Part shown: one piece after another, positions 2,430-44,805 of the stretch
Numbering within the stretch: position 1 is the first letter of the stretch
How the letters are laid out: each line of letters starts with the position of its first letter
NCBI RefSeq assembly: GCF_900166585.1
Contig: NZ_FVZC01000009.1
Location: 992,001-1,056,000, forward strand
Length of the DNA stretch: 64,000 bases
Direction of reading: 5' to 3'
Source of the DNA: Mesobacillus jeotgali
Lineage (GTDB): Bacteria > Bacillota > Bacilli > Bacillales > Cytobacillaceae
Notes under the pieces: generated by a model
The model's input: the letters and a program-made list of their open reading frames with translations, nothing else
Databases searched by the model: none
What the model was told of the DNA's origin: nothing
Position numbers and translations under genes: made by a program

Positions 2430-2600
2430 AATCCTCCGCGTGTTAGATCACAAACAGCGAGTGGATTTGAAAATAGGCATTTTTCTGTACGTGGTCATCC
2501 TTCCCATAGGGAATGAGCCAACAAAGGGTTGATCACCAAATCCACTCAAACAGTTTTTGTTACAGGGTCTTAGCCACCATAAAGAGCCACGTCCTCTAAA
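2430..2600 (-). ncRNA. candidate IS110 bridge RNA in the 5' non-coding end
   Basis: Upstream of the transposase, on its strand, an 11-base perfect inverted repeat (2459-2469 with 2537-2547, GAGTGGATTTG) encloses about 67 bases. Inside are a small hairpin (TTCCC ATA GGGAA near 2510-2522) and two single-stranded segments. One internal segment (plus strand 2476-2488, GGCATTTTTCTGT) matches the element/target junction at 1133-1145 (GGCCTTTTTCTGT) at 12 of 13 positions. IS110 elements are known to encode a bridge RNA in this location whose loops pair with donor and target. The RNA ends are guesses. Confidence 0.55.
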
Positions 2601-2677
2601 CCGTTTGTGTCCTCAACATTATAGACATATGAGATTTATTTTCATGCATGGGTTGGGAGTCAAAGGAATCATGATAG

Positions 2678-2716
2678 TTTTTGTTGAATTCCTTATTAAA
2701 CAAAACGGGGCAGGTT
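2678..2716 (+). repeat. right half of dispersed repeat split by IS110
   Basis: TTTTTGTTGAATTCCTTATT followed by AAACAAAACGGGGCAGG matches the second half of the copy at 5880-5918, and related tails occur near 6120, 7711 and 19911. Together with 1106-1141 it rebuilds one uninterrupted copy. Confidence 0.65.
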
Positions 2717-2980
2717 CCTCAATGTAATCGTCTGTACCCCATCAACATACAGGGGAGCCTGTTCCAGTCGTTATTTCTGGACCCGGCATTCGAAGAGACC
2801 GAGTCTTGCAATATAATGAACTAGGGGGGGCTTCCAGTAGCCACTGTCATTTAAGGTGAAGCGATTTTGTAAGGATTTTGCATGGACTAATAGGAAAAAT
2901 GAAAGCAAGGTAATTAACGAACCTAAGCCGATAAAATTTTAGTGGTAGTGTACCTGTGTAATAATTTATAGAATAAAAAA

Positions 2981-3022
2981 AGGACATGCATCTTAGCCTC
3001 ACTGAGATGCATGTCCTTCTTA
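2981..3022. terminator. strong stem-loop terminator downstream of the EamA gene
   Basis: A 16-base inverted repeat (AGGACATGCATCTTAG at 2981-2996, CTGAGATGCATGTCCT at 3002-3017) has an A-run on its left side and T-rich sequence on its right. Read on the minus strand, the A-run becomes the T-tail, which suits the transporter gene ending at 3123. Nothing else recognisable lies between the IS110 end and this hairpin. Confidence 0.75.
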
Positions 3023-3122
3023 TTTCCAATGAACTTCAGGAAATTAATTTGCAAGGCTTCCCGTAATTAAAGGTAGGAACCCTTAATCCATTATCAAGAC
3101 AAGTGGTTGTCCTCAAATTTTT

Positions 3123-4070
3123 TTAAACCTGTCTCCTATCATTAATACAAATACTCTGCAGTTGTTTTTTACTTTGCTGATTATCCGGGAACGATAAGAT
3201 GACAACAGCTGTAACGATAAAGAATCCGCCTAATAGTTGAGTAGTGCCAAACCCTACGTTTAACCATAGGATAGAGACCATTGCAGCAACTAGAGGTTCG
3301 ATACTGGATAATAAACTTGTTTCCGTGGCGCTTAAATAATTCAGACTGCCAATATAGAGAATAAAAGAAACTGTGCCGCTGATAATCACAAGAAGCATCA
3401 TCGAAAATGTATGAAATGTTAAGGTTTGCGCCAATTGTACAACGCTAAAACCAGGATTGAATACTAACAGGACAATGCCGCCAATTAACATACCCCAACC
3501 AATGATGACCGAGGTTCCCCACTCCTTGATCAATGAGATAGGATGGAGTGTGTAGAAAGTAAAACCAAGTGTAGTTAGTAGTCCAAGAATAATGGCCCTT
3601 TTCGATAATATGACAGTTTCCATTGAGCCATTTGTAATTAGGAGAACGGTTCCAACTAAGGCTGCAATTACAGCTAGGAATTGCATCATTGTTGGCAGTT
3701 TTCTTGTTTGCCATGCTACATAAATGGTAATGAAAACTGGACCAAGAAATTGGAATAATACTGCTGTGACTGCATTACTTACACGGATGGTTTCTATAAA
3801 AGCGTACTGGGCGCCAAGCATACCTAACACACCAAAAATCATGAGTTGAAACCAAGAGCGAGGATGCTTCCAAATGCCAAAAATGTTTTTTTGAGTGAGA
3901 TACAACAGCCCCAAAGTGATGATTCCAGCCATAATTAATCGCACAACAAGGAAATTATTCAGAGTTAATTCGCTGCTTTGAAAAAGCCACTGGATCATTG
4001 GTCCGGAGAGACCCCATAATGTTGCTCCACTAATTATCATCAAAAGTCCGACATATCGGGATGTTTTCAT
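3123..4070 (-). CDS. EamA (DMT superfamily) transporter
   Basis: A 315-residue, very hydrophobic protein with about ten membrane segments arranged as two EamA repeats; the first begins GATLWGLSGPMIQWLF and the second contains LNYLSATETSLLSSIEPLVAAM, typical of the family. Such proteins export amino acids or metabolites through the cytoplasmic membrane. It is transcribed divergently from a MocR-type regulator with a palindrome between them, a common pairing in which the regulator controls the exporter. The substrate cannot be read from sequence. Confidence 0.9.
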   Translation of the reverse strand: MKTSRYVGLLMIISGATLWGLSGPMIQWLFQSSELTLNNFLVVRLIMAGIITLGLLYLTQKNIFGIWKHPRSWFQLMIFGVLGMLGAQYAFIETIRVSNAVTAVLFQFLGPVFITIYVAWQTRKLPTMMQFLAVIAALVGTVLLITNGSMETVILSKRAIILGLLTTLGFTFYTLHPISLIKEWGTSVIIGWGMLIGGIVLLVFNPGFSVVQLAQTLTFHTFSMMLLVIISGTVSFILYIGSLNYLSATETSLLSSIEPLVAAMVSILWLNVGFGTTQLLGGFFIVTAVVILSFPDNQQSKKQLQSICINDRRQV

Positions 4071-4110
4071 GATGATTGCCTCCCTACTAATAGTTTTTTA
4101 ATTGTAATTA

Positions 4111-4126
4111 ATAGAAATGTTTCTAT
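4111..4126. promoter_or_regulatory. palindromic operator candidate between eamA-type gene and mocR-type gene
   Basis: ATAGAAA-TG-TTTCTAT is a perfect 7+7 inverted repeat in the 126-base divergent intergenic region. A TATAAT box lies at 4135-4140, pointing toward the regulator. MocR-type regulators usually bind such sites upstream of a divergent target, so this is the likely binding site. Confidence 0.45.
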
Positions 4127-4196
4127 AGTTGTATTATAATAAAGAACTGGCCTTGTTTATAGGGTCAGTTTTTGTCATTGTCAGGGGGTCAGATGA

Positions 4197-5582
4197 ATGT
4201 TTGAATTAACACTAAAATTTGATTCGTATAGTAAAGAACCTCAATATGTACAGTTGTATAATTATATTAAGCAAGAGATTGATAAAGGGAGGCTTAAGCC
4301 AAATACTAAGCTGCCTTCCAAACGAAAACTTTCTCGGTATCTAAAGGTGAGCCAAAACACTATAGAGGCAGCGTACGACCAGCTTGTTGCCGAAGGATAT
4401 ATCGAGGGAATCCCACGAAAAGGGTATTTTGTTTGTGAAATTGAGCCAACATTTTCTAGTGCTGAAAAAAATACCGGTTATATCCAGGAAAAAATCTTAA
4501 AAGGCGACGTCACCTTCGATTTCACTCATACAGGAGTTGATTACCATTCATTTCCTTTTTCTGTTTTTCGAAAAATAGCAAATGATGTTTTAAGGGATGA
4601 GAGTAAACAACTGCTGTCGATTGGGCATCCTCAGGGAGAATACGAACTCCGTGAAGAAATTGCCTCTTATCTGTACGAATCCCGTGGCGTCCGGACATCG
4701 CCGAGCCAGATAATCATTGGGTCAGGAACACCAACTCTAATACGACTTTTGTTTAAGCTGTTAAAGGGAAGCTTGTATGCTGTTGAAGACCCCGGATACC
4801 ATAAAAGACTTATAACCTTCGAAAAAGGACCTGAAAATGTGAAGGGAATTCCGCTTGATGATGAAGGAATCATCATAACCAGCTTAAATGAAAGTGGCGC
4901 TAATATCGCTTTTGTTACGCCGTCACACCAATTTCCTTGTGGAATGATAATGCCGATATCAAGGCGTAAGCAGTTATTGAGTTGGGCTAAGGAAAAAAAG
5001 GGACGATACATCGTCGAGGATGATTATGACAGTGAATTTCGTTATTCAGGCAAACCTATCCCTGCATTACAAAGTCTGGATTCCGATGAAAAAGTAATCT
5101 ATATGGGTACATTTTCTAAAGCGTTGCTGCCGTCCCTGCGCATGGCTTATATTGTCCTTCCCAAACCGTTAATGGAAAAGTACCATGAACATTACTTTCA
5201 CTTCGTTCAGTCTGTGTCTCGTCTAGACCAAGAGATCATAAAAAGATTTATGCAGGAAGGCAGCTGGAAAAAACATATTAACAAAATGCGAATTGTTTAC
5301 AATAAAAAAAGAGATGCACTAATCACTGCGCTTTCGAATCATTTCCCAAATTCAATTGAAATTATCGGCCAGGATTCTGGATTGCATCTACTAGTCCGCA
5401 CGAATAACGGTATGATGGAAAAAGAGCTTATTGAACAGGCTGCTAAATATGATATCAAAGTTTATCCTGTATCAGATTATGGTCTAAGTGACTATCAAAC
5501 CATTCTATTGGGTTTTGCAGTATTATCTGAGGAAGAGATCTATTCGGGAGTTCACTTGTTGGCGAAAGCCTGGGGTGGGTAG
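4197..5582 (+). CDS. MocR family PLP-dependent transcriptional regulator
   Basis: The 461-residue protein has an N-terminal GntR winged helix (residues about 10-78, QYVQLYNYIKQEIDKGRL to PRKGYFV) joined to a class I aminotransferase-like domain. K308 in GTFSKALLPSLR is the expected PLP-binding lysine, and DDYDSEFRYSGKP is the conserved pocket motif. The ATG at 4197 follows AGGGGG at 4183-4188. Members sense amines or amino acids through PLP and usually control a divergent gene, here the EamA exporter. Confidence 0.93.
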   Translation: MFELTLKFDSYSKEPQYVQLYNYIKQEIDKGRLKPNTKLPSKRKLSRYLKVSQNTIEAAYDQLVAEGYIEGIPRKGYFVCEIEPTFSSAEKNTGYIQEKILKGDVTFDFTHTGVDYHSFPFSVFRKIANDVLRDESKQLLSIGHPQGEYELREEIASYLYESRGVRTSPSQIIIGSGTPTLIRLLFKLLKGSLYAVEDPGYHKRLITFEKGPENVKGIPLDDEGIIITSLNESGANIAFVTPSHQFPCGMIMPISRRKQLLSWAKEKKGRYIVEDDYDSEFRYSGKPIPALQSLDSDEKVIYMGTFSKALLPSLRMAYIVLPKPLMEKYHEHYFHFVQSVSRLDQEIIKRFMQEGSWKKHINKMRIVYNKKRDALITALSNHFPNSIEIIGQDSGLHLLVRTNNGMMEKELIEQAAKYDIKVYPVSDYGLSDYQTILLGFAVLSEEEIYSGVHLLAKAWGG

Positions 5583-32066: not shown

Positions 32067-32545
32067 TTATTTTTCCGTCTGTACATGGATTGTTGCTCTT
32101 TGAACTAGCACAAAATAGGAAAGGAGAGCGAGTAAGCTTGCTGATAAAATAACCACACCCATTGGTATCGCTGAATATTCTCCCGCAATCCCTACTAATG
32201 GTGATGTAAGCGAACCAAGAACAAATGGCAGTAAACCTAATAGTGCTGATGCACTTCCGGCAATATGTCCCTGAGACTCAATTGCTAATGCGAAGGAAGT
32301 GGTTGAAATGATCCCTATGGAACACACTAAAAAGAAAATCGGGATAGCAACTGCTAGAAGTGGTGCTTTTAACAGAAGAGCTTCCAGTAAAAAAATACCG
32401 GCGGCAGTAGAAAGGTATAAACCGAATTTCAAGAATGTTTTTTCGGGAATAATATCTGCTAAACGACCAACCAACTGGGTTCCAATGATTAAAGCCAGGC
32501 CATTTACTCCAAAAAGTCGATTCAACTTCAGGAAAATATTTGTTT
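32067..32545 (-). pseudogene. C-terminal half of a Bcr/CflA-type MFS drug transporter
   Basis: About 152 residues remain, beginning near LFGVNGLALIIGTQLVGRLAD, which is the middle of this 12-helix family, and running to the natural C-terminus through about five membrane helices. No start codon or ribosome site is present, and homology stops at 32515-32545, exactly where the restriction remnant on the other strand begins. The first six or seven helices are gone, so transport function is lost. Confidence 0.8.
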
Positions 32546-34472
32546 GCTGATTCCATAATGATTGCTGATGAGTTGGTAGAAATCCGGGAAGTTACAGATT
32601 TTTCTGATTCAAACGAGGATGCAATCAACCTCTTATTTACAACTATCCAGCAACTGCATATCGACTTGAATACACCTCGTGAAAATCGCCTCTCTTATGA
32701 ACAATTCGAGGACATTTCCGTTGTAATGCTCGCCGACGAAGCACATCACTTAAATGCCGGACTCAATGCGGATGAGAAAAAGGATAATACCAGTTGGACT
32801 GCGACAGTTGATAACATTCAAAGAAATGCAAAAAAATCTTCTCTTTTCGAGTTCACTGCAACGATAGATTTGTTAGATGCTGACATTGCAGCGAAGTACA
32901 GAGAACACCTACTGTATAAATATAATCTTAAAGATTTTCGATTAGATGGTTATAGTAAAGATGTTTTGTTCCACCTGGTAAATAATGAAGTTGATGTCCG
33001 TATGCTTCAAGCAATAATCATCAGTCAGTTCAGAAAGAAAATCGCATTAAAAAATGGGATTAACTTAAAACCACTAATTCTATTTAAGTCACAAAAGAAG
33101 ACAGAGAGCGCAGGGAATCTATCTTATTTTCTTGAAATTTTGGATGGTCTAACGGCTTATCAAATTGAACAACAAAAACTATCCTCAACTGGCCTTGATG
33201 GTATTTTGACACAGGCGTTTAACTTTTTTGATGAAAATGGCATTACTCATGAGAACCTAATTGCCGAATTAAAAGAAGACTTCCGCGAAGAACGATTAAT
33301 GCTTATCGATAGTGATAATAAGACGAGTGATAAGTTGGTTGAATTAAATACTCTGGAAGATCCCAAAAATGAGATTCGGGCTATCTTTGCCGTTGATATG
33401 CTGAACGAAGGATGGGATGTACTAAATCTATTTGATATCGTTCGCCTCTACGATACTCGTGATGGGAAGACGACGAAAGCTGGATTTAAGCCAGGGGCGA
33501 CAACTAATGCAGAGAAGCAACTTATTGGTCGTGGAGCTCGTTACTATCCATTTGTCATCAATAATGATTTAGCTATGAAATACAATGCGGAAATTTGACC
33601 ATAATGAAGCGGCCGAACTACGCGTTATTGAACAACTTCATTACCATTCGAAAGACAACCCGAGGTATATTTCTGAGCTGAAGCAAGTTCTTCGCGAATC
33701 CGGAATCTATGATGACCAATCAATGGTTGAAAGGCAAATCAAATTGAAACGATCCTTCCGGAAAACAGGCACTTATAAGAACGGTGTCGTATGGGTCAAC
33801 AGTCGAGTTGAAAAGCCGTCCTCTACATCAGTGCAAGGGTCCTTATTCGGGGATGATTGGGAAATCATTCTTCCAGAGGAATTGGAAGTTCATCTTCCAA
33901 CTTCTGGTATGGGCGACTTTGCAGCCTTTGAAGGAGAAGACAGAGAGGTTTTTCAAGTTAAGAAAAAACAAGATAACCGAAAGTTCAAAGTCGGAAAAGA
34001 AATCACCCTCAATGTTTTGAGAGCAGCAGTGAACCTGAAAAATAAAGATTTTAATTTTGAGAAACTGCATAATTCTTATGTCGGACTACCAACTTTGGAA
34101 GGCTTCTTGAAAGAAATTCAAAACAAAGTGTCTGTCATTGTCTTTGGTGATGAAGAGGATGTAAAAACTCTTTCTCAAGATCACAAGCTGTTTATTTCAA
34201 ATGCAATTCTGCAGGCTATTGTAGATGAGTACATTAATGTTGAGAAACAGTACAAAGGAACTTTGAAATTCGAAGCAGTCAAGATTAAAGATGTTTTCGA
34301 GAAGAGAATTCAACGCAAGTATGTTATTGATTCGAATAGTAACAAGGAGAATGGTATTTCTCAAAAAGACTTAACTGAAACCAGAATCTTCGAGGATATC
34401 GATAAACTTGACTGGTATGCTTATACAGATAACTATGGTACAAGCGAGGGAAAATTCTCTTATTTAGTCTAA
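32528..34472 (+). pseudogene. type III restriction enzyme Res subunit, 5'-truncated and frameshifted
   Basis: Two overlapping frames (to 33598 and from 33585) together give about 640 residues. The first has the helicase Walker B box DEAHH (MLADEAHHLNAG), motif III-like FTATIDL and motif VI LIGRGARYYPF. The second continues with KFDHNEAAELRVIEQLHYH as in intact Res proteins. Walker A is missing, with homology starting at SGKYLF-like residues near 32528. A one-base shift around 33585-33598 breaks the frame. Intact Res is about 850-1000 residues. Confidence 0.82.
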
Positions 34473-34706
34473 CAACTTATCATAAAGTTAATGATTCATC
34501 CTATAGTTAAACTATTTAATATGTTATTAAAACTCATACAGAAACATTTTTTTACAAAAAATACAAAAATATACCGAATCCATATAAAATTTTGGTAAAA
34601 TAAAGACAGAAAAATAAATAATTTGAAAAATCTCATCGGATTTTAGGGGTGATTAATATACAATAATATTATAGTAAAGTACTTAATTAGATAAGAAGGT
34701 AGTAAT

Positions 34707-35519
34707 ATGGATAGAATTATAACCCCATTTTTAAAGTGGCCTGGTGGAAAAAGATGGTTTATACAGAAACACAAAAGTTTGTTACCTAAAGAGTTTAATA
34801 GATATTTTGAACCTTTTTTAGGAAGTGGAGTTGTATTTTTTTATCTTAATCCTGATGTGGCAGTTCTAAATGATTTAAATAAAAATTTGATCGATACATA
34901 TAAAGGTATTAAGAGTAAGTGGAGTAAAGTTTATCAATTATTAAATGAACATAACGAAGCTCATTGTAAAGAATATTATTATTATATTCGTTCGACAACT
35001 TTTACCACTTTAGAAGAAAAAAGTGCTCAACTGATTTACCTAAATAGAACATGTTTTAACGGGATTTATCGAGTTAATAAACAAGGGCAATTTAATGTAC
35101 CGATTGGTTCTAAAACGCAAGTTTTACTAGATACTGATAACTTTCAGGCAACTGCAAAAGCATTAAGAAGTACGAAACTATTAAATAAGGATTTTGAAAA
35201 AATTATTAATATGACTAAAGAGAATGATTTTCTATTTGTGGACCCGCCATATACAGTTCGACATAATAACAATGGATTCATAAAATACAACGAAGTACTT
35301 TTCTCCTGGGATGATCAAGTGCGTCTAGCCAAAAGTTTATCAAATGCAAAAGAACGTGGTGTAAAAATAATATTAACAAATGCTTCTCATGAATCGATAA
35401 GAGATTTATACGAGCCATATGGTTTTGATTTTATTGAAACCTCACGATATAGCTCTATCTCAGCATCTTCAAGTAAACGCAGTAATTACGAGGAATTAAT
35501 AATTATGGCAAATCTATAA
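34707..35519 (+). CDS. DNA adenine methylase, D12 (Dam-like) class
   Basis: 270 residues. FLKWPGGKRWF (residues 8-18) is the AdoMet-binding motif of the D12 class, FEPFLGSGVVFF follows, and D179-PPY is the catalytic motif; the order fits alpha-class N6-adenine methylases such as Dam and DpnM. The ATG has AAGGTAGT upstream. The gene is AT-rich and only 15 bases before the HerA gene, so the two are co-expressed. Likely role is marking self DNA; the target site is unknown. Confidence 0.9.
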   Translation: MDRIITPFLKWPGGKRWFIQKHKSLLPKEFNRYFEPFLGSGVVFFYLNPDVAVLNDLNKNLIDTYKGIKSKWSKVYQLLNEHNEAHCKEYYYYIRSTTFTTLEEKSAQLIYLNRTCFNGIYRVNKQGQFNVPIGSKTQVLLDTDNFQATAKALRSTKLLNKDFEKIINMTKENDFLFVDPPYTVRHNNNGFIKYNEVLFSWDDQVRLAKSLSNAKERGVKIILTNASHESIRDLYEPYGFDFIETSRYSSISASSSKRSNYEELIIMANL

Positions 35520-35534
35520 AAAGGAGAATAGTTC

Positions 35535-37526
35535 ATGAATCAGATTGAAGATTTAATTCAAACGTCAACTTTAAGCGATAATCCTCTTAGAGTGTTATCG
35601 GATTTTTTAGACAAACAAAAAAGTCTTGAAGATGCAAGAATAGTAGATCAAATGAGGTTTGTTGGATATGTTCTGGAGTTAAATTACGATACGGCTAAGA
35701 TAATTACTTCAGATCCATATAAAGTAGCAGTTGGAGGTATTCCTCGGGGATCATTCCTAATTTTAGTACCAAATGATTTTAGGGGTGTACCATATCACTT
35801 TACTCTTTTAAGAGTGGGTGGTGTTTCACCAACTCCACTAAGTAATCATGTACAGCAAACATATTTTGAATTGCATAAGAAATCTATGCCAGAGTTAGAC
35901 GTATGGACTCAAAGTGAGCTACAATGGGGAGCGTTGGACTGTGATGTGCTCGGAATGTTTTATCAAAATCCTGTTGAATCAAACAGAGTTGCATATTCAG
36001 GAGATGTAAATAATGTTGTTAGCGCTCATCGTTACTTAGTTTATTCTCCAAATCAAGAAATCTTAAATTTAATAATTAATGGGCTTGTTAAACAAAAAAA
36101 CAGTTATGATTTGGGCTATCTTCGGACAACAGAATGTCAACTAACATCGAGTCAGGTCCAGCCAACAGAAGTAAAGATTTCTGTTGAGGACTTCAAAGGT
36201 ACAAGGACTGCTATGTTCGGTAAGACAAGATTAGGTAAGTCAAATGTTGTGAAACTTATAGCTCAATCTGTTATTAAGGCATCAAAAAAAGATAAAACCG
36301 TAGGTCAAATTATCTTTGATACAAATGGTGAATATGCGAATGATAATCCTCAAGATGGGAATAAATCACTTAGGTCAGCGTATAAGGATGATTGTGTTGT
36401 TTATGCCTTAACCAAGAGACCAGGAACAGAGTCAAAGGATTTGCGCTTGAATTTCTATGAGCAACCAGATACATGTAAAAATGTAATATCAACTCTTTTA
36501 GAACAGGATAACCAGAATGCTATATATGTAAAAAGTTTTGCTAGTGTTGAATTACCAGCTATAGAAGCAATAAAGAGTGCCGATGATAAAGAAAAAACCA
36601 GAATGATAAGAAAGATACAGTTTTATTGGGCTATATTAAAAAAGGCAGGATATTCTTGTAGTGAATCAAATCTAAGTAAACTGGGATTAAGAACCAAGAA
36701 CGCCGGAGACTTTAATCCCGGACTTAATCAAGATGTTAGAAGGAAAATATACAATATAAAGAAGAATGATGAATTACCAGCTCAGCCTAGCACAATAGAT
36801 GAATTGGTTACTGAGATAACAGCATTAACAAAGTATATAAATGAAAATACTGCTAGTGAATTAAAGTCATCATCTTCTAAGAAGGATTTATTTGATGCTG
36901 ATGATCTTGCATTACTTGGCTTCTTTTCTCCAAAATCAGGAAGCGGTGTTAGTATTCTTCGGAATTATTTAAAATATCATTCTAAAGATGCAAGTAATTT
37001 TACTACAGAGATATTGGCATATATTGATGAAGGAAAAACAGTCATTTTAGATTTAGGTAATGCTACTGATAATATAAGAAGGTACTTTTCTGATTTAGTT
37101 TCAAAAGCAGTATTTGGACACCAAGAGCAAAAATTTGTTACAAATGAATTAGGAAACCATTTTGTTCAGCTCTATTTTGAAGAGGCACACAACTTATTCC
37201 CTCCAAATACAAATGACCATACGGGTATTTACTCTAGGTTTGCCAAAGAGGGTGCTAAATTCCATATAGGGATGGTATATTCGACACAGTCTCCTTCTAC
37301 AATTAGCAGTGAACTACTTGCGCAAACTGAAAACTTCTTTGTTGGTCATCTTTCTTCTTCAAATGAGACAAGGGCTCTATCAAAAGTACAAGTTGCATTT
37401 AGTGGAATTGAAGATGATATTCAAAAAGCAAAAACCCCGGGTTATATGAGAATGTTAACTATGTCTCATAGATTTGTTATACCTGTTCAAGCAAATAAGT
37501 TTGAAGTAGTTGTTGGTGAAGAATAA
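35535..37526 (+). CDS. HerA-type hexameric ATPase/translocase
   Basis: 663 residues with a short N-terminal HAS-barrel-like region (residues about 35-190) and a HerA/FtsK-class ATPase core. Walker A is G229-K-T-R-L-G-K-S, Walker B is YFEEAHNLFP with E549/E550, and YSTQSPSTIS is the sensor-like motif; an insert at about 300-470 is helical. HerA pumps DNA into the NurA nuclease. AAGGAGA precedes the ATG, and the stop overlaps the nurA start (TAATG). No Sir2, DUF4297 or other effector is fused. Confidence 0.88.
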   Translation: MNQIEDLIQTSTLSDNPLRVLSDFLDKQKSLEDARIVDQMRFVGYVLELNYDTAKIITSDPYKVAVGGIPRGSFLILVPNDFRGVPYHFTLLRVGGVSPTPLSNHVQQTYFELHKKSMPELDVWTQSELQWGALDCDVLGMFYQNPVESNRVAYSGDVNNVVSAHRYLVYSPNQEILNLIINGLVKQKNSYDLGYLRTTECQLTSSQVQPTEVKISVEDFKGTRTAMFGKTRLGKSNVVKLIAQSVIKASKKDKTVGQIIFDTNGEYANDNPQDGNKSLRSAYKDDCVVYALTKRPGTESKDLRLNFYEQPDTCKNVISTLLEQDNQNAIYVKSFASVELPAIEAIKSADDKEKTRMIRKIQFYWAILKKAGYSCSESNLSKLGLRTKNAGDFNPGLNQDVRRKIYNIKKNDELPAQPSTIDELVTEITALTKYINENTASELKSSSSKKDLFDADDLALLGFFSPKSGSGVSILRNYLKYHSKDASNFTTEILAYIDEGKTVILDLGNATDNIRRYFSDLVSKAVFGHQEQKFVTNELGNHFVQLYFEEAHNLFPPNTNDHTGIYSRFAKEGAKFHIGMVYSTQSPSTISSELLAQTENFFVGHLSSSNETRALSKVQVAFSGIEDDIQKAKTPGYMRMLTMSHRFVIPVQANKFEVVVGEE

Positions 37527-38860
37527 TGGCGTACAATAGTAGTCCGACATCACCTTTTGAAACAGCATCTAAGCTTGGGCATATTAATGTAATTGAGAGC
37601 GAATGGGTTCAATCATTAGTTCGGGAATTTGAAACTAATTCCTATGAAGTTTCGGATGGAGAGAAACAGGGATGGGAACAAGCAGAAACAACGGATTCTG
37701 AAAAGTTAAAGTATTTTTGGGCCGTTGATGGCTCCTATGTTTCGGTGACATCCGAAACAAAACCACCCAAAGAAGTATCATTTGTGAAAACAGCTCTAAT
37801 TTCAATAGACCGGTCGAAGTTAGAAAAAATTGACAAAGATCAACCTCATCCTTTGCAGTTGCAAGATATAATGACTAATAGTGCAGTTCAACACGCCACT
37901 GTTTTTCCACTAAAAAATATTAAGACTTCTCTAGGCTCTAATTACGATACCGTAAGACACATAGTAAGGGATTCCTTAAAGATAGATCAAAACGGAATGT
38001 TCTACGAAACTTTAAAATGGTTAGTTTATGAGAAATGGTCAGATAGTTTAACGCCGTCACCCGATTTTCAGTGTCCACAGTGTGATAAAGAGGTTTCCGG
38101 CTTAGAACCAGATCAAGATGAGAAAAACTGTGAGTTTTGTAGTAAAAAAGTATATCTTTCCGATATGATAGGTTTCCACTTAGACATGGATGAGGAAAGT
38201 GCTCCAGAAAGCGTAAGTTCCGCTTATATGCTAATTATGGAACACTTAATGTTATTTACAATAATCCGTTTGTTATGGAACCATAATGACAAAAAATTAG
38301 TTACTGAAACGTTATTTATAAAAGATGGCCCACTTACTTTACGTAGCCAGTATTCAAAACTAGTTCCAAAGATTAGATCGTTTTTAGAATTTGCAAAACA
38401 AACAGAACGTCCAATCCATATAATAGGGCAAGAGAAATCTGGTGTGTTTGCTGATCACCTATCTAAAATGGCGAGAGAATTGGAACCTATTGAAAGAAAC
38501 AGGCCTATGCACTTTTCAGTTTTAACCCACGAATATATACGAAAAGAGGTATATAGAACGCCCGACTTAATGAACGCATATGGGAAAAGGACAAACTGGG
38601 GTGAGAAAATGTATGTTAAGGTTGATCCCAATTCTTATTTAGTCCTTAATGTACCAACGGGTGAATACAAAGATAGTAAGGATTACCCTCAATCTTCAAA
38701 TTTAATAGGGCTAAATAGGATCCTTGCTACTCTTCCAGAACTAATTAGCCATAGATATACTGGAGCGCTTTTCCCAATTGAATTGGCAAACGGTATTGCC
38801 TCTATGTCCAGTTATCCTTCTTCAAAAATTTTGCAAAGGTTTTTGGAAGGAAGCTCTTAA
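37526..38860 (+). CDS. NurA-domain nuclease with a zinc ribbon insert
   Basis: 444 residues. WAVDGSY (D68) and FIKDGPLTLR are the NurA metal-site motifs of the RNase H-like nuclease fold. Between them is a four-cysteine ribbon, C183-x2-C186 and C202-x2-C205. C-terminal IIGQEKSG and the HRYTGALFPIELANGIASMS helix fit NurA. The gene overlaps herA by one base, so the two proteins are made in coupled fashion and likely form the HerA-NurA nuclease complex. A terminator follows. Confidence 0.85.
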   Translation: MAYNSSPTSPFETASKLGHINVIESEWVQSLVREFETNSYEVSDGEKQGWEQAETTDSEKLKYFWAVDGSYVSVTSETKPPKEVSFVKTALISIDRSKLEKIDKDQPHPLQLQDIMTNSAVQHATVFPLKNIKTSLGSNYDTVRHIVRDSLKIDQNGMFYETLKWLVYEKWSDSLTPSPDFQCPQCDKEVSGLEPDQDEKNCEFCSKKVYLSDMIGFHLDMDEESAPESVSSAYMLIMEHLMLFTIIRLLWNHNDKKLVTETLFIKDGPLTLRSQYSKLVPKIRSFLEFAKQTERPIHIIGQEKSGVFADHLSKMARELEPIERNRPMHFSVLTHEYIRKEVYRTPDLMNAYGKRTNWGEKMYVKVDPNSYLVLNVPTGEYKDSKDYPQSSNLIGLNRILATLPELISHRYTGALFPIELANGIASMSSYPSSKILQRFLEGSS

Positions 38861-38870
38861 TTTTACTGGT

Positions 38871-38902
38871 AAAAACCTTCCTTCTTTGGAAGGTTTTTTT
38901 AT
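38871..38902 (+). terminator. terminator after nurA
   Basis: AAAAACCTTCC (38871-38881) and GGAAGGTTTTTTT (38888-38900) form a clean Rho-independent terminator. It separates the methylase-HerA-NurA unit from the McrBC-like pair; a TATAAT box at 38915-38920 could start the second unit. Confidence 0.85.
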
Positions 38903-38949
38903 CCTTTGTTAAAATATAATTATAAAACTCAAATAACTGGAGAGGCAAA

Positions 38950-41538
38950 ATGAATAAACACGTATTTTTAAATATAGCGAAAAGAGTAAATAAAATTAAA
39001 ACACTAGGAACGAATAAATACAATTTGATAACTAATGTAAATAATCAAGAGATTTATTTAGAAACCGAAGCTAGTAGGGCTAAGTTTAAATCGGGAGAAA
39101 AAGCGAATCCATTTGAGAATATTTCTTTCAAATTCATTAATAGAGCTTGGGAAGAATTTATTATTGCTAGGCAAGCGAATTCTCATGATTTTCAGAAGGC
39201 AAGAGGACATTCGTCTTTTATAATTGCTTTTTTCTCTCAGTTACCTTTTGTCGAAGTAGTTAATCGTGACAATAAAATTGGAATAAAATTAAAAGAATTC
39301 CATACCGATGATATACCGAGTGAGCAGTACCAGAAAGTAAAGTTATTCTTAGACGAAGTATTAGAAGCAAAATATGACCCTAAGAACTTAAGTGGACAGA
39401 TAGATGGTAATTTATATAGAGTAAAATCGAGAGGAAGACAAGATTCAAGGTTATTGGGTTTTATTGATGAGTACAATAATATTAATAACAGTCAATTTAA
39501 CTTATACAAAAAAGCTGATAATAAAGATGAATACATGAAAAGCATTTTAATTAATGTAAGTTACTTTAAAATGGCTTTAATGATTTTAGATCTTCTAAGC
39601 AACATTTCAAAAAAAGAAAAGAAGGCCGCCCTCGAAGAGATAGGGATGTTAATTGTCAGGAACTCCCGAGGAGATAATTTAATGGTTGAATCAGTTGCTA
39701 AGGAAAGAACTCATAATCTTCTTAAGTGGCTGGAAAGCACAAATTTAATAGATTATAATTGGACTCCATATGAAAAGTACTTTGACGTTTTTAACAAGAA
39801 GGAGAACAGCATGGAAAGTAATTTAAGAGAAAGCTTATTAAAAATGATGAACGAGTACTTGCAAGCAAAAAGAGAGCCTTTTGGAGGTCATCCACTCGGA
39901 ACGTTTATAAGAAATGACGTACCGGTGGAGTTTACTCGATTACCTTTTGTACCTCCAACTGACTATGTTGTTACTGGCTCTGTAGGTCAGGGTGTATGGG
40001 CTCATGTGCCTTGGATTGCCATAATGAATAGGTCTGTCACAGTGTCAACACAAAGAGGATACTATATTGTTTACCTCTTCAGTGAGGATATGAGTAGTGT
40101 ATATCTAACTCTTGCTCAAGGTGTTACTGAAACTTCTCGAGAAGCAATACAAATAATTAAAGAAGAAATACGTAGATCTGTTCCTCTTTCCAGCAAAGTA
40201 AGGAAGGATGATGACTTTTATCTAGGGAATAGTCCAAGGGCAAAAGCTTACGCACAATCTACTGCACTTTATATACCCTATGATAATGAAAACATGCCGG
40301 ATGAGAGTGAACTACTGGCAGACCTAGAAGAAATGATTAATATTTACGAGAATTTTATTTCTATTAAGAATGGCAGTGTGCATTTTAGGTATGAAGGAGA
40401 TATTATGAGTGAAAATCCACATGATGTAACTAGAGAAAAATTCGAATATCTCTCTTACAATGATTTAGTTACTTATATTTATTCTTTTATTAAGGGTAAA
40501 GGTTTTTATTACGAAAAGGAAGAAGTAATCAATCTCTTCTTATCCCTAAAAACAAAACCTTTCGTCATCATCTCAGGTATTTCCGGAACAGGTAAAACAA
40601 AGATCGTCCAATGGTTTGCTGAAAGTGTAGGAGCAACAGAAAAGAATGGGCAATTTAGTTTAATCCCGATCCGTCCAGATTGGAATGATGGTTCTGACTT
40701 ACTGGGATATGTTGATATTAAAGGTGAGTTTAAAGAAGGACCTTTAACGAAGGTAATTAAGAACGCTCACCTGAATCCTGATCTGCCTTATTTTGTGCTT
40801 CTGGATGAGATGAATCTGGCGCGTGTTGAGTATTATTTTAGTGATATTTTAAGTGTGATGGAGAGCCGTAAGTGGGAGAATGGTGAGGTTGTTTCTTCAA
40901 CTCTTCTCTCTAGTGATGTGTATGGGGAGGACCTTACTCTTCCAAACAATCTTTATATAATCGGAACGGTTAATATGGATGAAACGACGCACCCATTCAG
41001 CAAAAAGGTATTGGATCGGGCAAATACGATTGAGTTTAATCGTGTTAATCTTGGTAACCTGGCTTTTTTAACTGAGCTTGAAGAAGTGGAGCCGAAAGTC
41101 ATCGGTCATGATCGTTTTGCTTCTAAGTATCTTCATTTAAAGGACGTATATAAAGAAAATAAAGAATTAGTGACCAGGGCTACGGATGAGCTGGTTAAAA
41201 TCAATGAATCACTCCAGTTGATTAATGCGCATGTTGGTTACCGTGTTCGGGATGAGATCTGTTTTTATCTGGCTTACAATGAAGAATCAAATTTAATGAA
41301 GTTTGAAAATGCATTTGACCACTGCATCATGCAGAAGATACTTCCGCGAATTGCCGGCAGCGACACCAGAGTGGAGCAATTGCTGAGGGAACTTTATAGT
41401 CTGTTTGCGAATAAAGACTATGAAGAAGATGGTCAAAATGACATTCAAAATGCCAAGTATCCGCGAAGCGCAGCAAAGGTTGCTGAAATGCTTGGGAGGT
41501 TAAGAAACGATGGCTTTACTTCCTTCTGGATCTCGTGA
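38950..41538 (+). CDS. McrB-like AAA+ GTPase with DUF3578 (MrcB_N) domain
   Basis: 862 residues. An unrecognised helical N-terminal region (1-285) is followed by a DUF3578-like modified-DNA reader (about 290-480, with VTGSVGQGVWAHVPWIAIMN). The McrB motor has Walker A G543-ISGTGKT, Walker B LLDEMN (D619, E620) and NVDE-like GTVNMDETTHPFS (N675). CGAGAGGC upstream (GGAGAGG at 38939-38945) supports the ATG. It shares 29 bases with the next gene. The 5' half is far more AT-rich than the 3' half. Expected to bind modified DNA and drive the McrC-like nuclease. Confidence 0.88.
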   Translation: MNKHVFLNIAKRVNKIKTLGTNKYNLITNVNNQEIYLETEASRAKFKSGEKANPFENISFKFINRAWEEFIIARQANSHDFQKARGHSSFIIAFFSQLPFVEVVNRDNKIGIKLKEFHTDDIPSEQYQKVKLFLDEVLEAKYDPKNLSGQIDGNLYRVKSRGRQDSRLLGFIDEYNNINNSQFNLYKKADNKDEYMKSILINVSYFKMALMILDLLSNISKKEKKAALEEIGMLIVRNSRGDNLMVESVAKERTHNLLKWLESTNLIDYNWTPYEKYFDVFNKKENSMESNLRESLLKMMNEYLQAKREPFGGHPLGTFIRNDVPVEFTRLPFVPPTDYVVTGSVGQGVWAHVPWIAIMNRSVTVSTQRGYYIVYLFSEDMSSVYLTLAQGVTETSREAIQIIKEEIRRSVPLSSKVRKDDDFYLGNSPRAKAYAQSTALYIPYDNENMPDESELLADLEEMINIYENFISIKNGSVHFRYEGDIMSENPHDVTREKFEYLSYNDLVTYIYSFIKGKGFYYEKEEVINLFLSLKTKPFVIISGISGTGKTKIVQWFAESVGATEKNGQFSLIPIRPDWNDGSDLLGYVDIKGEFKEGPLTKVIKNAHLNPDLPYFVLLDEMNLARVEYYFSDILSVMESRKWENGEVVSSTLLSSDVYGEDLTLPNNLYIIGTVNMDETTHPFSKKVLDRANTIEFNRVNLGNLAFLTELEEVEPKVIGHDRFASKYLHLKDVYKENKELVTRATDELVKINESLQLINAHVGYRVRDEICFYLAYNEESNLMKFENAFDHCIMQKILPRIAGSDTRVEQLLRELYSLFANKDYEEDGQNDIQNAKYPRSAAKVAEMLGRLRNDGFTSFWIS

Positions 41539-43984
41539 TGATGTTGAATTAGTAAAAATTGAGACCGAGGATCTTTCATTAGTGATAAAGGGAAAACCTT
41601 ATCATGAACGGTATGAAGGATTACGGCAATATAAGGCTATGGACCGTCATGATGTAATGTACTTTAATGCTGTTAGTGATTCCATCCAGAATGAAAAGAT
41701 TTATGATATCTCCGTTCAAGAGTTGGTAAACCCAACAATCCAAAGGCCGATCTTCTTTGAAAATGGGATCTATCAGCTTATTGTCGTTCCGAAAGATGAT
41801 CGGGAGTTCACTTTTTATCACGAATATCCTCTTATCAGACAAGCTGTTTCTCCTGTTCCTATTGGCAGTCAATCTATTTTAATGGGGAATCTGCAGTTTC
41901 AAAACGAGGTTGGTTTTACAACGTTTGAGATAAGAGCCGATGGTAAAACACTCCTTGAAGTCACACTGGAAATTTTCCCTGTTAAACTTGATTATAAAAA
42001 CGATTATCAAAAGTTATTAGAAGAAGTAAACGATGAAATTTATAACCTGGCTTTTCACTTTATCCGAAAAACATATTTGGGTGCCAGGCTAAAGCTAGAG
42101 GGAAATCCGTCGAAAGCGGAATTTTACCGGCTGATCAGTGAGCATTTTCATCAATTTCTTCAGGCAGTTGCGAGAATTGAATTTCAACCTCATCATAAAT
42201 TGGAGAAGACTTATGAAAAAGCACGCGGGGACCAGCTGAGGAAGCAAGACTCTGTAAGCAGGAATTTTTTAAGGAAGCGTGCAAACGTCTTTGTGGATGT
42301 ATCAAAAGGGATTGACATTCATGGCAGGAAAGTGATGCCAACAGAAGGGTTAAAAATCAAAAAAGAGCTTACATATGATACTTTGGAGAACCGCTATGTT
42401 AAGTGGATGATCGTGCGGATTAGACAAAAGCTGGATGATTTATTGGACTCTATTGTGAGCAAAAACAGATGGACCAGAGAGAAGCCAGATTATGACTTAG
42501 TTGAGAAAATTGAATCGATGTCGAAACAGTTAAAGACAAAGCTGAGCAGTCCTTTTTGGAAGCCTATTGGCAAGCTGGACCGATCAGTTATGAGTCTGGT
42601 TCTGCAAATGGCGCCTGGTTATCGGGATGCTTTTCAAATCTATTTAACCGTATCCAAAGGATTGATGCTGCAGGGGAAGCTTTACCAAATGTCGGTGAAG
42701 GATGTTGCGACTCTCTATGAATATTGGACTTTCTTGAAGCTAGGGCAAATTCTTGGCTGTAAGTATAAGCTTATTAGCCAGGATATTGTACAGGTTAACA
42801 GGGAAGGTTTGTTTGTAAATCTGGAAGCAAATAAAACGGCCAGAAGGATATTCAGGCATCCTGTTACGAATGAAGAAATCATTTTAGCGTATCAAAAACG
42901 GGAAAGCAGCTTGCCGACTGTTTCGCAAATACCTGATACAATGCTGAGCATTGAGAAAAAAGGTAAGGGATACAAATACCATTATATTTTTGATGCCAAG
43001 TATCGGATCGATTATGCCCAGGAAGACAGCTATTACCAGAAACGATATAAGATACCCGGTCCAATGGAGGATGACATTAATACAATGCATCGATATCGGG
43101 ATTCAATTGTTGCAACAAGTGGGGGACCATTTGAAAGAACCGCTTTTGGAGCTTATGTGTTATTCCCATGGTTTGACGAAACTCTCTATGAAGAGCACCA
43201 TTTTTACAAGAGTATTGATAAAGTGAATATAGGCGGGCTGCCTTTTCTTCCGAATGCCACGAATATGGTTGAACGGTTCGTAGAAAGATTGATCGATAAG
43301 AGCCCGGAGGAGATACAAAAAGAAGGGATCCTGCCAAGAGGGGCACATGAAGAATGGAAGTCGAGCATGGATCAAATGGTAATGGTTGGACTTGTTTCCG
43401 ATCAAGAGAGTTATGATCAATTCATCAAGGAAGCCTATTATCAAATTCCTGTGAAACAATTAAGAAAAGGCTGGCAGGAAGCTGAGTTTATAGCTTTGTA
43501 TGTTAAAAACAGCTTGAATAGTGATAATGGAGTGCGGCTTTACGCAAAGATTAAAGATGTCATGCCTTATTATGATGGTACTGAAGAATACATGCGTTTT
43601 CGCATAGCTGCCTGGTCCAGATTGAAGCAGAATATTAGACCTGTATATTATGGCATTTCCAACTATGTGATGACGACTTTAAATAACCTAAAAGAAGCTC
43701 AGGAACTTCCTGAATTATTTATGAAATCCAATGAAGAGAGGTCCATATGGCGAATGCTTAGGAGGGTCTCGGATCACATTAGGATTGACCTGGACCACGA
43801 GAATCTTGATAGGGCTTCTAGAATTTCGGAATATAAGATTAAAGATATCAAAGTGATCATGGATAAGCAGGATAGAGAAATCCGATTTATTAAAAATTAC
43901 ACAGAAGAAGCGGTTTCGATTGAACAATTAGAGAAAAATCCTTCAGGGGTTTTTAAGAAATTGATAGAAATGCTTCAAGAATAG
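41510..43984 (+). CDS. McrC-like nuclease with DUF2357 domain
   Basis: 824 residues, starting inside the end of the mcrB-like gene. The N-terminal part (1-130) is beta-rich, DUF2357 follows with helical coiled regions (about 140-330), and the PD-(D/E)XK site reads SIEKKG...YIFDAKYRID with D495, K497. The C-terminal 250 residues are unassigned. LlaJI R2 is a known member of this arrangement. It should cut DNA when activated by the McrB-like partner. A terminator follows directly. Confidence 0.85.
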   Translation: MALLPSGSRDDVELVKIETEDLSLVIKGKPYHERYEGLRQYKAMDRHDVMYFNAVSDSIQNEKIYDISVQELVNPTIQRPIFFENGIYQLIVVPKDDREFTFYHEYPLIRQAVSPVPIGSQSILMGNLQFQNEVGFTTFEIRADGKTLLEVTLEIFPVKLDYKNDYQKLLEEVNDEIYNLAFHFIRKTYLGARLKLEGNPSKAEFYRLISEHFHQFLQAVARIEFQPHHKLEKTYEKARGDQLRKQDSVSRNFLRKRANVFVDVSKGIDIHGRKVMPTEGLKIKKELTYDTLENRYVKWMIVRIRQKLDDLLDSIVSKNRWTREKPDYDLVEKIESMSKQLKTKLSSPFWKPIGKLDRSVMSLVLQMAPGYRDAFQIYLTVSKGLMLQGKLYQMSVKDVATLYEYWTFLKLGQILGCKYKLISQDIVQVNREGLFVNLEANKTARRIFRHPVTNEEIILAYQKRESSLPTVSQIPDTMLSIEKKGKGYKYHYIFDAKYRIDYAQEDSYYQKRYKIPGPMEDDINTMHRYRDSIVATSGGPFERTAFGAYVLFPWFDETLYEEHHFYKSIDKVNIGGLPFLPNATNMVERFVERLIDKSPEEIQKEGILPRGAHEEWKSSMDQMVMVGLVSDQESYDQFIKEAYYQIPVKQLRKGWQEAEFIALYVKNSLNSDNGVRLYAKIKDVMPYYDGTEEYMRFRIAAWSRLKQNIRPVYYGISNYVMTTLNNLKEAQELPELFMKSNEERSIWRMLRRVSDHIRIDLDHENLDRASRISEYKIKDIKVIMDKQDREIRFIKNYTEEAVSIEQLEKNPSGVFKKLIEMLQE

Positions 43985-43991
43985 TGCGATT

Positions 43992-44020
43992 AAAGGCAGA
44001 CAATGAGTCTGCCTTTTTGT
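43992..44020 (+). terminator. terminator after mcrC-like gene
   Basis: AAAGGCAGAC (43992-44001) and GTCTGCCTTTTT (44007-44018) with loop AATGA close the defence island. Confidence 0.88.
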
Positions 44021-44044
44021 GTAACTTTAAACTTTTGGTGTTAA

Positions 44045-44242
44045 TTATTCATGGATTGGCTTGCACACTTTGCAAGTTTTAACGGAAGGATCGTTTAGCT
44101 CTTCAAGATGTTGTAGAGGGCGATAGTAACCGTTCTTCTCCTTATTAATGATCACTTTTAAATCAAAATTCTTTTTTATGATATAGGAGCAATTTGTTTT
44201 ATGAAGCTTGTTTCCAGTAGCGCTGTCATAAAACGACAACAT
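44045..44242 (-). CDS. small Cys/His protein, 65 aa
   Basis: Contains HKTNC near residue 14-18 and CKVCKP at the end, an H-x3-C plus C-x2-C pattern like the small zinc or Ada-type segment found at the end of some secreted nucleases. No clear ribosome site precedes the ATG on the minus strand. It may be a fragment of a longer gene. Function unknown. Confidence 0.35.
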   Translation of the reverse strand: MLSFYDSATGNKLHKTNCSYIIKKNFDLKVIINKEKNGYYRPLQHLEELNDPSVKTCKVCKPIHE

Positions 44243-44374
44243 AAGGATATTTCAGGATTTCAGCAAACATCTTTATAGCCACTAATAACACTCCCTTTTT
44301 CTATGAATATATCACTCAGAACAGGGAAATGGTATAATTTAACTAAAGTATATTCTGAATAGAGGGAAAATGAT

Positions 44375-44470
44375 ATGGCTGCATATTTTACTGTGGAAAA
44401 ATTTGATTTTCCGGGAAATTTACGAGGCAGAAGTATTCATATAAATGTTATGTGTGGGTTAGTGGTCTAA
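44375..44470 (+). CDS. 31-residue ORF just upstream of MazG-like gene
   Basis: Starts at ATG 44375 with GAGGGA (44362-44367) at good spacing and ends 2 bases before the next ATG. The peptide has FTVEKFDFPGNLRG and looks like the start of a longer protein. It may be a leader peptide or a truncated gene that now couples translation of the next one. Confidence 0.35.
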   Translation: MAAYFTVEKFDFPGNLRGRSIHINVMCGLVV

Positions 44471-44472
44471 GT

Positions 44473-44805
44473 ATGGGTAAGTCAAAGGTTTATAACAAGT
44501 TAGTCAGGGACCGAATACCTGAAATCATTCATCAGTCAGGAAAGGGATTTAATACAAAAAAACTGGTACATGATGAATATATCAAAGAGTTGAAAAAGAA
44601 AGCATTTGAGGAACTGAACGAATACACAAATAGTGCTAGCACACAAGAAGCAGCTGAAGAATTGGCAGATTTATTAGAAGTAATGTATTCGCTAGCAGAA
44701 GTTCATGGTTATAAATTTAATCAGATTGAGGAAATTCGTAAACGGAAAGCAGAGGTTAGAGGCGGGTTTAGGGAAAGGATATTTTTGATTGATGTTGAGG
44801 GGTAG
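44473..44805 (+). CDS. MazG-like / phosphoribosyl-ATP pyrophosphohydrolase-like protein
   Basis: 110 residues starting MGKSKVYNKLVRDRIPEII. The KLVRDRIP signature and FEELNEY...AAEELADLLEVMYSLAEVHGY, with the EExxE...D metal-binding pattern, place it among all-alpha NTP pyrophosphohydrolases. It likely clears non-canonical or toxic nucleotides. It is not next to his genes, so a histidine role is unlikely. Ribosome site is weak; see the coupled 31-residue ORF. Confidence 0.8.
   Translation: MGKSKVYNKLVRDRIPEIIHQSGKGFNTKKLVHDEYIKELKKKAFEELNEYTNSASTQEAAEELADLLEVMYSLAEVHGYKFNQIEEIRKRKAEVRGGFRERIFLIDVEG

Follow-up and report, generated by a model that had tools for sequence, protein, structure and literature searches.

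Does the run of five genes at positions 34707 to 43984 of this Mesobacillus jeotgali stretch (64,000 nucleotides, referred to as the window) form a single defence system, and why does a DNA methylase stand next to a HerA ATPase and a NurA nuclease? The five genes are two independent units and not one system: unit 1 (34707-38860) comprises the methylase, HerA and NurA, and unit 2 (38950-43984) an McrB/McrC pair. The methylase-HerA-NurA set is a genuine recurring module, with a DNA methylase gene directly beside the pair at 24 of 27 other HerA-NurA loci, and we consider it likely, at a probability of roughly 0.6, that unit 1 is a self-contained restriction-modification-like defence module in which a TdpAB-type translocase-nuclease is combined with interchangeable methylases.

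A recurring methylase-HerA-NurA module

A search with NurA by itself yielded 28 other NurA loci with readable flanks (0.3 to about 10 kb), namely L004-L007, L048-L057, L058-L062 together with L085 (five plasmids and one phage), L088-L092 (viral contigs) and L098-L100. Leaving out L053, where NurA is in pieces and HerA is absent, 27 other HerA-NurA loci remain, some closely related (L006 and L007; three cyanobacterial loci); also outside this count are the broken G425, phage H7, L097, which is the same locus as L004, and seven weak partial NurA matches (G221, G235, G302, G340, G370, G419 and G589). The adjacent methylase is of the D12 type at 19 loci and of the N6/N4 type at five. The D12 hidden Markov model (HMM) used on some loci was trained partly on loci counted here; independent Pfam methylase support was obtained for L048-L052, L054-L057, L060 and L062, support by tblastn for L004-L007 and by record annotation for L058, the methylases of L088-L090 and L098-L100 also match that of the window by tblastn (L099 weakly, 7.5e-07), and the calls at L091 and L092 come from the HMM only. 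In an evenly drawn set of phyla (398 genomes), seven other genomes hold a full-length NurA match and all seven have an adjacent methylase; G424 and G425 hold broken NurA pieces and seven others gave weak partial matches. At L055, L058 and L062, three of the 27 loci, HerA has a short or interrupted reading frame, which at L062 is annotated as two open reading frames (ORFs). At L058, on a Deferribacter megaplasmid, the interruption is an IS200/IS605 insertion, with transposase and TnpB genes lying inside herA (2515-4294).

Clustering in defence islands might by itself bring an unrelated methylase to this position, since such islands do cluster, and D12 methylases occur on 2459 plasmid records. 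Were the methylase such a passenger, its position as immediate neighbour at 24 of 27 loci would be hard to reconcile with ten McrB control loci (19.5-20 kb), none of which carries a D12 or N6/N4 methylase with the same HMMs; this control concerns these two families alone, and two of its loci (L039 and L041) have genes that by eye resemble C5-cytosine methylases. The background is low, with 19 PF02086 and 30 PF01555 matches above cut-off in 61 related genomes, less than one per genome for each. In addition, two of 21 genomes of the genus, G000 and G016, have HerA-NurA, and these two alone have a D12 methylase, in each case adjacent to HerA-NurA (Fisher p 0.0048, in a test that ignores relatedness and with two of the 21 genomes less than 90% complete). 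We regard a mere passenger as improbable.

The components also vary together. Across 22 loci the distances between methylases and those between NurA proteins are correlated (Mantel r 0.82; 0 of 9999 permutations), a value to which shared descent contributes, so that it shows joint travel and not contact. On plasmids, HerA and NurA match the same five records. In a tree of 28 NurA sequences the N6/N4-linked members occupy three places, L054 with L056, L060 beside the D12-linked L057, and L055 and L058 beside the cyanobacterial group that has no methylase. The methylase itself may lie upstream or downstream of HerA-NurA, or be divergent or convergent. This suggests, judging from a tree with long branches and two splits supported at less than 0.1, of which one is deep, that the modification gene was exchanged repeatedly between loci.

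A DNA repair operon, in which HerA-NurA would resect double-strand breaks, the role of the pair in archaea and Deinococcus, would be expected to look different. End resection by HerA-NurA is described for archaea, and a bacterial complex is known as well (PMC12977600 and PMC9960219). The NurA of the window, on the other hand, is sporadic, being matched in three of 201 related genomes, its own included, and relatives with about 60% identity are found under names from Bacillota, Pseudomonadota and Bacteroidota; the module also occurs on plasmids and phages, with a distant form on an archaeal plasmid. HerA and NurA are moreover nearer to TdpAB than to the repair HerA-NurA, and neither Mre11 nor Rad50, with whose genes the repair HerA-NurA clusters, is found among the eight window proteins scanned (32540-44802). 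A role in repair is thus very improbable. In Vibrio phage PQ189353 (L062) the module sits between genes annotated as integrase and excisionase, and in the viral contig L088 between likely repressor and integrase genes (ORFs judged by eye), so that in these two it looks like cargo of temperate phages. None of 14 stretches was confirmed in a first scan of viral contigs, and a distant DNA search of E. coli genomes with two queries gave no match.

Layout and kinship of unit 1

The features of the locus, all on the forward strand, are as follows.

34707..35519, +, Dam-family (D12) adenine methylase, the putative modification arm (PF02086, TIGR00571, DpnM, motifs)
35535..37526, +, HerA ATPase of TdpA type, the putative translocation arm (DUF87, TdpA match)
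37526..38860, +, TdpB-type NurA nuclease containing a four-cysteine insert, the putative cutting arm
38072..38140, +, predicted zinc-ribbon-like stretch of NurA (C183, C186, C202, C205; cysteine positions and conservation)
38871..38902, +, intrinsic terminator closing unit 1 (stem scan and folding z-score)
38950..41538, +, McrB-like AAA+ protein with an MrcB_N (DUF3578) domain, a separate unit outside the module
41510..43984, +, McrC-like protein with DUF2357 and a PD-(D/E)XK nuclease, a separate unit outside the module

The reading frames encode 270 (methylase), 663 (HerA), 444 (NurA), 862 (McrB) and 824 (McrC) amino acids and contain no internal stops. HerA and NurA overlap by one base (37526) and McrB and McrC by 29 bases (41510-41538), and 89 bases separate the two units, which share a strand. 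Between them lies an 11-pair stem (38871-38898) with a T-rich tail and a folding z-score of -3.23 against shuffles. Terminator-like sites number 13 in the window with 5.0 expected, and a scan match by itself is therefore weak evidence; this site has the longest stem of all. The initial annotation of this DNA was right in the coordinates, intact frames and overlaps of all five genes and in placing them in two transcription units, and its gene identities are borne out by family profiles and, for NurA, by relatives and fold. It had called the methylase unlinked-looking, which is mistaken, only 15 bases lying between this gene and herA, and the functional tie that it nevertheless drew between methylase and HerA-NurA is supported by the adjacent methylases of the other loci.

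The methylase matches PF02086 (E 2.1e-48) and TIGR00571 dam (8e-72), has the motifs PFLKWPGGK, FLGSG and DPPY, and among proteins of solved structure is nearest to DpnM (5.3e-52), followed by Dam of E. coli. Both of these enzymes act on GATC. Since they are the nearest relatives, and since the stretch NRTCFNGIYRVN, which we take to be the DNA-touching part of DpnM/Dam-type methylases, resembles its counterpart in the two, the target is likely to be GATC or a related site. The genome of the window has a single D12 match, the one in unit 1, and no PF01555 match; with D12 methylases of the genus confined to HerA-NurA genomes, this methylase is not the housekeeping Dam of the genus.

HerA (DUF87, E 3.6e-11) has its Walker A motif, GKTRLGKS, at 229-236, where it had been annotated, and the Walker A residues and an EE pair are invariant in all 13 aligned sequences. 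Its best match among all Protein Data Bank (PDB) sequences is TdpA (E 1.7e-25, the runner-up reaching 1.9e-9), and a profile search gave the same protein with 2.6e-43; by these comparisons HerA is of the TdpA type. TdpAB is named in PDB titles as the restriction complex of a phosphorothioate-based defence.

The NurA of the window has no Pfam match at 1e-3; its family is apparent from relatives, six of the 22 aligned reaching PF09376 with values down to 2.2e-21. Its AF2 model (pLDDT 86.8) matches solved NurA-type nucleases by fold and, in the single structure comparison made with it (VIA), the partner chain of TdpA in TdpAB is nearest. Among 28 sequences, D68 is conserved in all and E239 and D267 in 27 each, residues that presumably are the catalytic acids of NurA, and each of the four cysteines C183, C186, C202 and C205 is kept in 26 to 28. 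Plain sequence searches of the PDB with NurA returned no match at all, and a profile search returned matches of zinc-finger type only.

The McrB/McrC pair as a separate unit

In unit 2, McrB matches MrcB_N (7.1e-57) and, weakly, AAA_5 (23.4 bits, cut-off 22), with Walker A GISGTGKT at 543 and VNMDETT at 674, and McrC matches DUF2357 (1.8e-85) and PDDEXK_7 (4.6e-56) and has IFDAKY. An NxD branch of McrB has been described (PMC11090510); the VNMDE of the window fits this form, and the same holds for 99 of the 120 relatives listed, while 21 fall outside the pattern used. The pair shares MrcB_N with AAA+, DUF2357 with PD-(D/E)XK, and VNMDE with the type IV McrBC systems of the NxD branch, and no notable difference from them was found. 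An attack of this pair on DNA with foreign modification would be ordinary type IV biology.

On the proposal, made in the initial annotation, that the five genes act as two layers of one combined system, both groups would be expected to travel together, and in the window they do stand on one strand 89 bases apart. At the other NurA loci, however, McrB/McrC relatives are found in none of the 28 (some flanks being short), and among 118 listed McrB relatives only that of the window is apparently on the contig of a listed NurA protein. Each group is regularly found without the other: at E <= 1e-3, and counting distant AAA+ proteins, 55 of 101 related genomes have a match to McrB, against the three of 201 for NurA; nine of 20 genus-mates (G001, G006, G007, G008, G010, G014, G017, G019 and G020) match McrB strongly (E <= 5e-188) and NurA not at all; and in G016, the sole genus-mate with HerA-NurA, no match to McrB was found. 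With these independent distributions and the terminator between the units, a conserved five-gene system is refuted and a joint action of the five genes here is scarcely credible. The McrBC pair stands on its own as a type IV system that shares a defence island with unit 1.

McrC follows McrB in all ten McrB loci (seven from the genus and three from the family), and the region upstream of McrB varies among seven listed McrB loci. In the window and in eight of the ten loci (L038-L045) the gene after McrC is MazG-like (44452-44805 in the window); in L047 the MazG-like gene is located upstream of McrB. In three genus-mates (L030, L031 and L032) the AAA+ part of McrB is 92-94% identical to that of the window (38950-41538) and the N-terminal half 36-43%, the pattern that an exchange of the reader domain would leave.

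Upstream of unit 1, the region 32067-34472 holds what is left of a type III restriction subunit (PADLOC REase_III, 32540-34472), which has lost its N-terminus, has a frame break near 33585-33598, and abuts a gene resembling a truncated transporter on the opposite strand. This remnant was rejected as a part of the module for its missing N-terminus and broken frame, and no match to it was seen at other NurA loci.

Proposed mechanism and relation to known systems

The proposal for unit 1 starts from what was observed, that is gene identities, operon structure, co-occurrence, co-variation, the relation to TdpAB and residue conservation. We hypothesize that the resident DNA is marked throughout by the Dam-family enzyme, which would methylate the adenine of a short recognition site, and that a ring of TdpA-type HerA would pump duplex DNA, carrying the TdpB-type NurA nuclease with it. 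The complex would translocate along unmethylated phage DNA that enters the cell, and NurA would degrade it. Host DNA would be spared through its methyl mark, which would prevent the complex from loading or pumping or its nuclease from being activated, by analogy with phosphorothioate, which reportedly blocks TdpAB on host DNA.

Several points weigh against this reading. Anti-phage activity in the first place is something that we infer, as are methyl sensitivity, the target site, and ring and complex formation. HerA and NurA have no apparent site-recognition domain, and sequence searches of the PDB with NurA gave no TdpB match. At the position that we take to be that of the catalytic His of NurA, the window has Asn, and Asn or Gln is found in 16 of 28 sequences, so that identical NurA chemistry is not to be assumed. 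Among the 120 nearest methylase relatives listed, 19 are apparently on the contig of one of the 120 nearest NurA proteins listed, window included, and 101 are not, the latter comprising methylases 67-68% identical that are named Bacillus amyloliquefaciens group and B. subtilis; lists of this length neither prove nor exclude a solitary use of the methylase. Related Dam genes adjoin DGQHR-domain genes on Zymomonas and Roseateles plasmids (L086 and L087), with no HerA-NurA there. Finally, the three of 27 loci that have no methylase are plasmids of Calothrix, Nostoc and Tolypothrix. On these cyanobacterial plasmids (L059, L061 and L085) a helix-turn-helix gene precedes HerA-NurA, with no methylase nearby.

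The three methylase-less loci would suit a HerA-NurA that acts as a DNA-end nuclease on linear phage DNA regardless of methylation, the methylase being separate or regulatory. This would also agree with the NurA of T. kodakarensis, which cuts circular single-stranded DNA and spares circular double-stranded DNA, its cleavage being accelerated by HerA (PMC12977600), and from which it follows that attack may start at the ends of linear phage DNA. Nevertheless, a methylase that adjoins at 24 of 27 loci, in two families and four arrangements, is hard to explain if dispensable, and we consider an end nuclease indifferent to methylation unlikely.

If the restriction-modification-like reading of unit 1 is correct, HerA-NurA, mostly known as repair machinery, would in its methylase-paired form be a compact three-gene restriction system. 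More tentatively, and with somewhat less than even confidence in the whole, TdpAB-type HerA-NurA might be the engine of a class of epigenetic immune systems with an exchangeable modifier (D12 adenine methylase, N6/N4 methylase or phosphorothioate enzyme), in which the motor, as duplex DNA is threaded through its ring, tells marked from unmarked DNA with no dedicated subunit for site recognition. TdpABC would be one member of this class, and the methylase-paired form another, a separate and widespread kind of restriction-modification in bacteria, archaea and temperate phages. The question then arises whether one kind of translocating motor can read N6-methyladenine, possibly N4-methylcytosine, and phosphorothioate as self.

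No description of a methylase-HerA-NurA defence module was found among the top-listed titles and abstract openings from the open-licence PMC literature, and one may already exist; a 2025 review of restriction-modification (PMC12707154) contains neither HerA nor NurA. HerA/FtsK capture systems (PMC10853773) and BREX-related systems with PglZ, GNAT and TGT (PMC12839542) have been described, in both cases with no NurA in the available portion of the text. PADLOC v2.0.0 matched the methylase and HerA generically and had no model matching the NurA of the window. As initially supposed, the set is neither DISARM nor BREX (PglZ, BrxC), both rejected with no model of either at 1e-3 in the eight proteins scanned. 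The HerA-DUF4297 and Sir2-HerA (Nezha) systems likewise combine a HerA-type ATPase with an effector partner, and were rejected because the partner here is NurA in place of DUF4297 or Sir2 and HerA reaches 59.5 bits against the NCBIfam HerA_antiphage model, whose cut-off is 800.

The archaeal and Deinococcus HerA-NurA of end resection differ from unit 1, which has an adjacent methylase, a sporadic and mobile spread and a closer kinship to TdpAB. Type II and type III restriction-modification share with it the pairing of methylase and nuclease, type III having an ATPase as well, whereas the nuclease arm of unit 1 is HerA-NurA; the general feature of such systems, a methylase linked to a nuclease gene, is present in the window as in the 24 other loci. 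The likeness is greatest to TdpABC, the phosphorothioate-based defence of An et al. 2025 (doi 10.1038/s41589-024-01832-w), to whose TdpA HerA is nearest by sequence and to whose TdpAB partner chain NurA is nearest by fold, and which has the same layout of modification gene, motor and nuclease. Unit 1 has a Dam-family methylase where TdpABC has the phosphorothioate enzyme TdpC, and no sulfur-modifying enzyme is found among the eight proteins scanned, the rest of the genome not having been searched. With a TdpA-type ATPase and a TdpB-type nuclease and no adjacent TdpC, unit 1 is not TdpABC, and it probably works like it.

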